Shown piece by piece: positions 22,795-25,413 of a stretch of DNA of 64,000 bases (its first letter is position 1; each line of letters opens with the position of its first letter). Origin of the DNA: Bacteroidota bacterium (GTDB lineage: Bacteria > Bacteroidota > Bacteroidia > Flavobacteriales_F > PHOS-HE28); the NCBI GenBank assembly GCA_014584605.1, contig JACTMO010000083.1:1-64000 (forward strand). Reading direction: 5' to 3'. The notes under the pieces were generated by a model. It saw nothing but the letters and a program-made list of their open reading frames with translations, was not told the DNA's origin and ran no database searches. Position numbers and translations under genes: made by a program.

Positions 22795-22945
22795 TCGCAT
22801 TCATGGGTGCGACCTGAACCGAAAGGGCCACCACTGCCCAAGGCGGTAACAAGCTCCGTCCGCATCCGGCGACCACCTTGGGCCACCGCGACACCGACAC
22901 GCTTCTTGTGGCCATGATCCCCCTATCCCCGCACAATGCTTGTTT

Positions 22946-22978
22946 TGAGTTTCCTAAAGTTGTACTTTAGAATTCTCA
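22946..22978. repeat. left 33-nt compound palindrome bracketing the AAA ATPase ORF
   Basis: TGAG-TTTC-CTAAAGT-TGT-ACTTTAG-AATT-CTCA; 27/33 identical to 24170-24202. Confidence 0.92.
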
Positions 22979-22981
22979 AAG

Positions 22982-24172
22982 ATGAGATACACCGACCGCG
23001 ACCTAGGGAAGGTCCTGCTGAAGGCCTCCCGCTCCTTTCCTGCCGTGGTGCTCACGGGGCCGCGCAGGGCTGGCAAGACCATGCTGCTGCGCAAGCTCTT
23101 CCCCAAGGCCTCGTACACCCTGCTGGAGGACCCCGACGTGATCGCCCGCATGCGTGCCGATCCCCAGGGCTTCCTTGATGAGCTGAAGCTGCCCGCCATC
23201 CTCGACGAGGTGCAGCACGTGCCGGAGCTGTTCTCGTACGTGCGCTCGCGCATCGACCGCAACCCGCGACGCACGGGCCAGTGGTTCCTCACCGGTTCGC
23301 AGGAGGCCGCGCTGATGAGCGGCGTCACCGAATCGATGGCGGGGCGCGCGGCTGTGCTGCAGCTCTACCCCCTGTCCGTCACCGAATCGTCGCGTGTGGG
23401 TTTGCTGTACGGCGGATACCCCGAGGCCGTGGCACGCCCCAAAGGCGCCGGGCTCTGGTTCAGCAGCTATGTGCAGACCTACCTGGAACGCGATGTGCGG
23501 GCGGTGACCAACGTGCGCGACCTGGCCACCTTCCGGCGGTTCATGGCCCTGCTGGCCACCCGGCACGGTCAGGTGCTCAACCGCACCGAGCTGGCCGCAC
23601 CGCTGGGTGTGAGCGTGCCCACCATCAACCAATGGCTCGGCGTGCTGGAGACCACCCAGCAACTGATCATCGTGCCGCCCTTTTACGAGAACCTGGGCAA
23701 GCGCCTGATCAAGTCGCCCAAGCTGTACTACGCCGACAGCGGCCTGGCCTGCCACCTGCTGGGCATCACCACCGGGGCCGAACTGGAGCGCTCCCCCTTC
23801 CTGGGGGCGCTGTGGGAAGGCTTCGTGGCCTCCGAGCTCATCAAAAGGCAGGTGAACAGCGGCCAGCGACGCGAACTCTACCACTTCCGCGACCAGCAGG
23901 GGTTGGAAGTGGACTTCCTGCTGCCCACGCCCAACGGCGGCGTGGACATGATCGAGTGCAAGGCCACGCGCACCCCCGTACCCGGCATGGCAACGGCCCT
24001 GGCCCAGCTTACCCGCGCCTTCGAGGAAAAGCGCAAGCTCGCACGCCCCGCGCGCTGCTTCATCCTGCACCGAAAAGGCGACCGGCGAACCCCGAGAAGC
24101 CTTGTCCATGGCGTGAAAGCAATGGAGTTGATCGAATGGTTGCGGCCGGGCCGGCTTTCCGGTAGATCATGA
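22982..24172 (+). CDS. AAA family ATPase with DUF4143-type C-terminal domain
   Basis: VVLTGPRRAGKTMLLRKLFP Walker A, PAILDEVQHVPELFSYVR Walker B, LTGSQEAALM, C-terminal LEVDFLLPTPNGGVDMIECKAT nuclease-like motif. Confidence 0.9.
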   Translation: MRYTDRDLGKVLLKASRSFPAVVLTGPRRAGKTMLLRKLFPKASYTLLEDPDVIARMRADPQGFLDELKLPAILDEVQHVPELFSYVRSRIDRNPRRTGQWFLTGSQEAALMSGVTESMAGRAAVLQLYPLSVTESSRVGLLYGGYPEAVARPKGAGLWFSSYVQTYLERDVRAVTNVRDLATFRRFMALLATRHGQVLNRTELAAPLGVSVPTINQWLGVLETTQQLIIVPPFYENLGKRLIKSPKLYYADSGLACHLLGITTGAELERSPFLGALWEGFVASELIKRQVNSGQRRELYHFRDQQGLEVDFLLPTPNGGVDMIECKATRTPVPGMATALAQLTRAFEEKRKLARPARCFILHRKGDRRTPRSLVHGVKAMELIEWLRPGRLSGRS

Positions 24173-24202
24173 GTTATTTAAAGTTGCACTTTAGGAATCT
24201 CA
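24170..24202. repeat. right 33-nt compound palindrome; first 3 nt are the ATPase stop codon
   Basis: TGAG-TTAT-TTAAAGT-TGC-ACTTTAG-GAAT-CTCA. Confidence 0.92.
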
Positions 24203-24441
24203 CAAGACGGGACCAAGTCGTGCGGACTTTCACTGGCCAAGAACAACGCCCTTCACGAGCGTTCGTGGATCATGATGGCAAAGCCATGGCGGCTGCACGG
24301 GCATAGCGGTCGCGCGATGGAGGACCGGCCCTTGTGGCCGGATCCCGGCCGATGAGGTGCGTGGACGGGAAACGCGGTATCTTCGGGTTCGGCGATCCTT
24401 CGCATCGATCCTGGCAACCCCGCTCACCGGAACCATGCACG

Positions 24442-25251
24442 ATGAACAGCGCGGACCTGTTCATTCCGACCGACCCCACCGAGAAGCGTTTCATCCGCTG
24501 CATCTGGCGTGTCGAGGAGCTTCACCGGCGGCCCTGCACCGAGACCATCCTGCCGAAGGGGACCGTTGAGCTCATCTTCAACTTCTCCGACCGGATCACG
24601 CACGTGGACCTGGAGACCGGCACCGCGACGGTGTTGCCCGACCTCTTCATCAACGGTATCAACTTCAAGCCGTTCCAACTGCAGAAACAGGGGGGGCAGC
24701 ACTTCCTCGGGATCCAGCTCACCACCTTCGGGATGCGCGGCCTGTTCGGGGCGGGTGTCGGGACCTACCATGACAAGGTGATCGAAGGTGCGCACGTGTG
24801 CCGGTCGCTGCATGCGTTGTTCGGCCAGGTGCAGGCGCGCAAGGCGTTCAGCGAACAGGTGATGGTGATCCGGGCGTGGCTGGAGCGGCGGATCGCGGCC
24901 TCCCGGTCCAGCGACCGCGTCGGGCGGATGCATGACCTGTTCTCCTTTGACCGGCCCGGCGAGCTGGACGTGGCACGGCTTTGCCGGGAGAAGGGCGTCA
25001 GCGACCGGCAACTGCGGCGGCTCTCCACGGAATGGCTGGGCATGAACACCGAGACCTTCCTGCTGTACCGCAAGTACCGCGCGGCCCTGCACCTGTTGCA
25101 CCGCACCGGCTTTTCCCTCGGCCAGGTGGGCCTGGAGGCGGGCTACTACGACCAGTCGCATTTCATCCGCGAGTTCCGCGCCTTCACCGGCATGACCCCC
25201 ACCGCCTACCGGGCTTCGGTCACCGGGCTGCCGGGCCACATCCTGGGCTGA
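24442..25251 (+). CDS. AraC family transcriptional regulator
   Basis: C-terminal LDVARLCREKGVSDRQLRRLSTEWLGM...FSLGQVGLEAGYYDQSHFIREFRAFTGMTPTAYR. Confidence 0.92.
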   Translation: MNSADLFIPTDPTEKRFIRCIWRVEELHRRPCTETILPKGTVELIFNFSDRITHVDLETGTATVLPDLFINGINFKPFQLQKQGGQHFLGIQLTTFGMRGLFGAGVGTYHDKVIEGAHVCRSLHALFGQVQARKAFSEQVMVIRAWLERRIAASRSSDRVGRMHDLFSFDRPGELDVARLCREKGVSDRQLRRLSTEWLGMNTETFLLYRKYRAALHLLHRTGFSLGQVGLEAGYYDQSHFIREFRAFTGMTPTAYRASVTGLPGHILG

Positions 25252-25413
25252 GAGCCTGTTTGGGATCTCCAGAACGAAGGACCCCGAGGCTATTTTTTGG
25301 TCAGGCACAGCCAAAAAATCATCGCGTAGCGGTGTCTACGGGATCATTTTTTGGCGAAGCATGGGCGAAAAAGAGACCGGGGGACGAGTTTGAGGAGACC
25401 CCGAACAGGCTCT
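25251..25413. mobile_element. MITE/REP-like non-coding element, 163 bp with 20-bp terminal inverted repeats
   Basis: AGAGCCTGTTTGGGATCTCC (25251-25270) vs GGAGACCCCGAACAGGCTCT (25394-25413), 18/20 paired; internal hairpins ATTTTTTGG/CCAAAAAAT and CGTAG/CTACG. Confidence 0.7.

Follow-up and report, generated by a model that had tools for sequence, protein, structure and literature searches.

Proteins of the PDC-S01 family, DUF4143 / AAA_14 'ATP-binding proteins', are candidate phage-defence singletons; they are widespread, have been transferred between domains and rank fourth in frequency among the candidate defence systems of prokaryotes (PMC12988326). In a table entry, arCOG03166 is described as an archaeal 'AAA+ ATPase fused to HTH and RecB nuclease domains' and as a likely defence or plasmid gene (PMC4158269). 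No tested role for PDC-S01 was reported in the open-access literature searched. Palindromes go unmentioned in the main text of the PDC-S01 paper, and the passages found in the two sources make no mention of palindromes tied to the family (PMC12988326; PMC4158269). Open-access papers in general yielded no description of palindromes at DUF4143, AAA_14 or PDC-S01 genes. The protein family is already known, and its link to palindromes is new as far as the open-access literature shows.

The window (the whole 64,000-nt stretch of Bacteroidota DNA that was analysed) carries a gene of this family, with the following parts.

22982 to 24172, plus strand: ATPase gene, 396 aa, with AAA_14, winged HTH and DUF4143 PD-(D/E)XK parts; PADLOC PDC-S01 (Pfam, PADLOC, AlphaFold2)
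23057 to 23080, plus strand: Walker A motif GPRRAGKT, residues 26-33 (51-sequence alignment)
23522 to 23674, plus strand: predicted winged helix-turn-helix, residues ~181-231 (helices 181-193, 201-208 and 212-224 and strand 228-231 in the model)
23804 to 23971, plus strand: PD-(D/E)XK nuclease-like core, E279, D311 and E325-x-K327 (alignment; helix-strand-strand-strand order in the model)

AAA_14 (E=2e-23, 83 bits) and DUF4143 (E=6e-47, 160 bits) were the sole Pfam domains over the cut-off, and no known transposase or recombinase domain was found by Pfam. The PADLOC model PDC-S01, a candidate defence family, matched with E=8e-100 and 332 bits. An AlphaFold2 model with the 51-sequence alignment as input reached a pLDDT of 90.6 and was laid out as an ATPase, a winged-HTH-like segment and a nuclease-like core. 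G26, R28, G31, K32, the Walker B residues D75-E76, E279 and D311 were invariant in the 51 aligned homologs, and E325 and K327 were conserved in at least 90% of them. The top match in a fold search was the archaeal Walker-type ATPase PABY2304 of P. abyssi (PDB 2qen, E=2.7e-07), a distant relative (15% identity, TM ~0.44-0.49); Card1 nuclease and RuvB-type motors were also among the matches. Judged from the model, the winged-HTH segment is likely the DNA-recognition part. From knowledge of the family we infer nuclease and DNA-binding roles, and the gene product is probably a DNA-cutting ATPase. The gene resembles PDC-S01 in its protein family, in the fusion of an ATPase to PD-(D/E)XK and in standing as a single gene, and its defence role is that of a candidate (PMC12988326). 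The domain order described for arCOG03166 is the same, a likeness by the description in that table entry alone (PMC4158269).

Two palindromes bracket the gene.

22945 to 22979, no strand: left palindrome, TTGAG-N4-CTAAAGT-TGT-ACTTTAG-N4-CTCAA, kept in 31/31 orthologs from other phyla
24170 to 24202, no strand: right palindrome, the second copy, which starts on the stop codon; homology with other sites stops at or just past it

The sequence-only reading had described them as 33-nt repeats with 27/33 identical positions, and the sequence confirmed this: the left copy at 22946-22978 is TGAGTTTCCTAAAGTTGTACTTTAGAATTCTCA, the right copy at 24170-24202 is TGAGTTATTTAAAGTTGCACTTTAGGAATCTCA, and 6 of the 33 positions do not match. 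The 33-nt left interval stands, but the symmetric unit is really 35 nt (22945-22979, TTGAG...CTCAA), and the gap to the ATG is 2 nt rather than the 3 nt first given. A strict motif search found the perfect core TAAAGTNNNACTTTA exactly twice in the 3,735,532-bp genome, both times in the window palindromes. When up to two mismatches were allowed, four unrelated sites with degraded cores appeared besides the pair, and a reversed control pattern gave 25. The pair is not a product of chance. The right copy overlaps the TGA stop codon of the ATPase ORF, as had been noticed at the outset; this holds in G000 and G005 only, whereas the copy starts ~14-18 nt past the stop in G002 and G009 and up to ~31 nt past it in Verrucomicrobiales.

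Orthologs were found in seven congeneric genomes at 70-100% identity. All seven carried both palindromes, including the G009 ortholog (L016), which has an internal in-frame TGA and intact palindromes. No second full-length ortholog was found in any one genome, and the full-length copies occupied three sites, with neighbours at B and C named from their translations.

Site A (G000, G005): the neighbours are an NHL-repeat protein gene or a variable region, and an AraC-type regulator
Site B (G002, G009): just past an Lhr-like helicase gene
Site C (G017, G019, G033): adjoining an EttA-like ABC-F gene

In the window, a ~166-bp repeat with dozens of copies across the genus lies at 25248-25413, at the point where the AraC-type gene adjoins a methyltransferase gene. 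Across 44 congeneric genomes, perfect cores lay at DUF4143 ATPase genes in 16/16 cases, 15/16 of them at the family of the window ATPase. Fourteen of the cores formed seven pairs, one was a contig-end copy in G036, and one belonged to a more distant paralog in G037. The palindrome is thus not the widespread, unrelated motif that the sequence-only reading had named as its own refutation.

Of the 40 loci found in a scan of 84,980 species genomes, five were congeners and 31 were orthologs from other phyla (58-71% identity; one fragmentary match, 51%). The hosts of the 31, as MAGs or genomes, were Verrucomicrobiota, Pseudomonadota, Nitrospirota, Acidobacteriota, Planctomycetota, Actinomycetota, Myxococcota and one Cyanobacteria bin, and the phyla were intermixed in the protein tree. 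Many loci come from MAGs, where misbinning can blur single host assignments; a complete chromosome and several >200-kb contigs are among the carriers. An upstream palindrome of the type TTGAG-N4-YTAAA...TTTAR-N4-CTCAA lay 0-4 nt 5' of the start codon in 31/31 orthologs, about seven times in imperfect form. A second copy past the stop was present in 8/31 (~6 sites), in Verrucomicrobiales, and the downstream copy was absent from most non-Bacteroidota orthologs. In these sequences the upstream copy is obligatory and the pair is not. The paired repeats that had been predicted around homologous ATPase genes were found, at all congeneric orthologs and at eight from Verrucomicrobiales.

The two arms of the palindrome changed together among orthologs (AAAGT/ACTTT, AAACT/AGTTT, TTAATAT/ATGTTAA). 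Watson-Crick arm pairs numbered 440/560 against 357 expected from column composition, and the observed count is too low because the script mis-centred four palindromes (L073, L074, L075, L077). G-T arm pairs fell below expectation (25 observed, 33 expected), which makes the symmetry look like a property of DNA and not of RNA. Among the congeners, the outer arms of left and right copies changed in step, with GAG/CTC at sites A and B and GGG/CCC in most site-C copies. In these comparisons the second copy, in lineages that have one, varies together with the first, and it stands at the opposite border. The palindromes might nevertheless act as RNA, in the form of a terminator, an attenuator or a start-codon hairpin, and folding of the left copy against shuffles (z -2.8) points that way. 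The right copy gave z -1.0, however, G-T pairs were not enriched, and the sequence (TGAG, TAAA) is conserved beyond mere pairing. A terminator scan found no rho-independent terminator (GC-rich stem and T run) at either palindrome, and the palindromes had no Rfam match. With folding, terminator scan and Rfam giving no support, the hairpin and terminator reading was rejected, including the terminator first suggested for the downstream copy; we consider any RNA function very improbable.

Other DUF4143 genes also carry palindromes. A strong palindrome lay within 75 nt upstream of 21/32 other DUF4143 genes of the genus, compared with 5/108 control genes, and upstream palindromes occurred at 19/28 DUF4143 genes across Bacteroidota, compared with 1.4% of shuffles. 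The palindrome sequence differed by subfamily, and most were ~31-41 nt dyads near the ATG. A second subfamily (~411 aa; L122, L124, L138, L036) had palindromes TTCGCCACG...CGTGGCGAA on both sides, and a 41-nt palindrome pair at L210 marked a further paired subfamily. Three plasmid homologs with annotated starts (38-44% identity) had upstream dyads. A homolog of 40% identity (L236), likewise with an upstream dyad, is carried by the small Wolbachia plasmid pWALBA2, where it adjoins an Rpn-type putative transposase gene.

Since the palindrome is kept over phyla, stands always at the ATPase gene and is different at paralogs, its reader must travel with it. The ATPase is the only gene inside the unit and therefore the only candidate reader. 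An AT-rich dyad at a promoter has the normal shape of an operator, and a widespread host regulator could in principle own it; yet the perfect core was at no non-DUF4143 gene in the 44 genomes, the same site recurs in many phyla, and other DUF4143 genes have different palindromes. These findings make a host operator hardly conceivable.

Some DUF4143 genes had flanks of another kind. L020/L177 (G032), L023, L025, L032/L172, L039 and L219 were flanked by 38-144 bp duplicates of a neighbouring host gene. At L020, the differences between the copies were synonymous by eye, which would suit an origin of one of them in another strain, and five relatives had the empty site. These long direct repeats were considered as DUF4143-specific target duplications and rejected; they are in fact duplicated host-gene ends (e.g. 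of the AsnRS gene and a LuxE-like gene). A ~9-kb type I restriction-modification island (HsdR-like, HsdM-like; G000:C36, L173 1000-10065), in which no integrase was recognised, has the AsnRS gene on one side and, on the other, a 54-bp duplicate of that gene's 3' end. Because the same duplications flank this island, they indicate a general cassette-acquisition route in the genus rather than one specific to DUF4143 genes.

Bacteroidota promoters have a consensus other than the sigma70-type one. A sigma70-type promoter was found inside the left palindrome of the window.

22945 to 22950, plus strand: -35-like hexamer TTGAGT, within the left palindrome
22968 to 22973, plus strand: -10-like hexamer TAGAAT, after a 17-nt spacer, ending 8 nt 5' of the ATG

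TTGAGT-17-TAGAAT was the only promoter-like site in 22850-24350, as a consensus match in a phylum whose consensus differs. The pattern TTGAGN-17-TAGAAT, at 8/12 matches or more, was present in 92% of 37 orthologs, where shuffles gave 19% and the 167 control genes 4%, and the -10 element lay a few nt before the ATG in orthologs. Since the promoter abuts the ATG and leaves no space for a ribosome-binding site, a leaderless mRNA is predicted. At other DUF4143 genes the sigma70-type promoter was less frequent (39%, against 22% of shuffles), and the Bacteroidota-type TAnnTTTG occurred near the starts of 14/48, against 4-5% of controls; no exact TAnnTTTG was found in the left palindrome of the window. 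By consensus match, the left dyad overlaps its own promoter in the manner of an autoregulated operator, and self-repression is its simplest function because of that overlap. Of the operator role proposed at first for both copies, the part concerning the left copy was supported.

The palindromes could be operators and nothing else, with the right copy as a loop or decoy, spread by ordinary horizontal transfer of the kind seen for other defence genes, and borders that reflect the functional unit of promoter plus ORF. The promoter set for a leaderless start, the upstream copy standing alone in most orthologs, the maximum of one full-length copy per genome, and the host-gene-end duplications that other imported cassettes (the type I island) have in common with some DUF4143 genes are all consistent with such an account. 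The borders of the unit bear on it directly.

22937 to 22944, no strand: left flank TGCTTGTT, 7-8 nt beyond the left palindrome and common to sites A and B; putative outermost left edge of the moved unit (pairwise comparison of G000, G005, G002 and G009)

Between sites A and B (~89% nucleotide identity), homology started 7-8 nt outside the left palindrome, where GCTTGTT of the flank was present in 4/4 sequences and its first T in three, and stopped at the right palindrome. Two betaproteobacterial copies (88% identity, one on a complete chromosome) were homologous only from the left edge of the palindrome to the stop codon. Sharp borders were visible at sites A and B and in this pair only, the other copies being too far apart in sequence, and part of their sharpness could come from selection that keeps the functional unit compact. 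At ~89% identity, however, unselected flanks should be recognisable, whereas homology stopped at the palindromes; palindromes were also found without the gene, and the second copy covaries with the first. We therefore give the operator-only account a minor, though real, likelihood.

Relics of the unit were found elsewhere in the genus. G021 had a palindrome pair 181 bp apart without an ATPase, upstream of a CoA-transferase-like gene (L190 1490-1709, G021:C350), which may represent a relic or else a non-autonomous element. A decayed solo palindrome without an ATPase stood beside the site-C gene in G036, and truncated ATPase remnants lay at other sites in G034, G001 and G037. Apparent site-A matches in G034 proved spurious, the locus being the remnant beside an endonuclease-III-like gene. 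These loci partly answer the sequence-only expectation of empty or one-repeat sites: the G021 pair and the single G036 copy were found, but no clean empty site matching the paired unit was found in congeners, where flanking regions are too variable. Neither of the two refuting conditions set by that reading held. A homing gene would keep a fixed insertion site, whereas here full-length copies occupied three sites and remnants others; copies at the different sites A and B had defined ends in common.

A more radical account holds that the unit is an autonomous mobile element of a new kind, whose ATPase-nuclease cuts or joins at the palindromes and moves its own gene, with single-palindrome forms being one-ended or homing-like. 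ATPase, DNA-binding and intact nuclease motifs are united in one protein, palindromes stand at both ends at several sites, and the G021 pair, the G036 solo relic and the three remnants would all suit such an element. Against it, no genome was multi-copy, no flanking repeat besides the palindromes (hence no target-site duplication) was found for the family of the window ATPase, and neither a clean matched empty site for the paired unit nor a known transposase chemistry was found; we regard it as doubtful, indeed quite improbable. The occurrence of the unit as a single copy and the absence of target duplications speak against a classical transposon. The original idea that the repeats are cassette ends of a mobile gene is partly supported by the pairs around all congeneric orthologs, the several sites and the borders, and is weakened by the absence of the downstream copy from most non-Bacteroidota orthologs.

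With moderate confidence, we consider the locus to be a unit of one gene that moves horizontally and regulates itself; its protein would recognise the palindromes of the unit, the left of which would be the promoter/operator. Comparison of sequences documents the horizontal movement of the unit. It also shows that within the genus the palindrome is specific to DUF4143 genes, that gene and palindrome were co-transferred across phyla, that the two arms changed in matched fashion, and that the units have borders at the palindromes, occupy different sites and have left relics. In the mechanism that we propose, the ATPase / winged-HTH / PD-(D/E)XK protein would bind its own palindrome. The left copy would act as a compact promoter-plus-operator joined to the start codon, from which the sigma70-type promoter would give a leaderless mRNA, and protein bound to the overlapping dyad would turn off its own transcription. 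The right copy may give the protein a further site to bind and so close off the unit. What moves would be the stretch between two palindromes or, in units that lack the second copy, the stretch between the palindrome and the stop codon. The benefit is probably defence, for which PDC-S01 is a candidate, or selfish persistence.

These results suggest that this gene, of a kind very often listed as 'candidate phage-defence', forms a unit complete in itself, which recognises a DNA tag of its own. If every such gene has a cognate palindrome at its start codon and often moves bounded by palindromes, then its DNA target, regulation and spread are directly testable. If true, counts of PDC-S01 genes as 'defence' may need rethinking, since they could be selfish or mobile genes. 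A wider proposal, which we think unlikely, is that DUF4143/PDC-S01 ATPases are an unrecognised class of minimal mobile genes, in which the protein regulates itself and mobilises its gene via a cognate palindrome serving as a lineage-specific 'address'.

The unit shares with insertion sequences with terminal repeats, IS200/IS605 and REP/RAYT a compact single-gene form and structured ends; it differs from them in that it encodes no transposase of a known type, no genome had more than one full copy, target duplications were not found, and each end is itself a full palindrome. Integron gene cassettes likewise consist of one ORF and a palindromic site, but the window unit is without an integrase, and no attC cores (RYYYAAC/GTTRRRY) were visible in the palindrome sequences when read by eye. 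The autoregulated operators of toxin-antitoxin or transposase genes also place a dyad over their own promoter; in contrast to these, the window unit is one gene, its operator crosses phyla, and a second copy stands at the gene end in some lineages.
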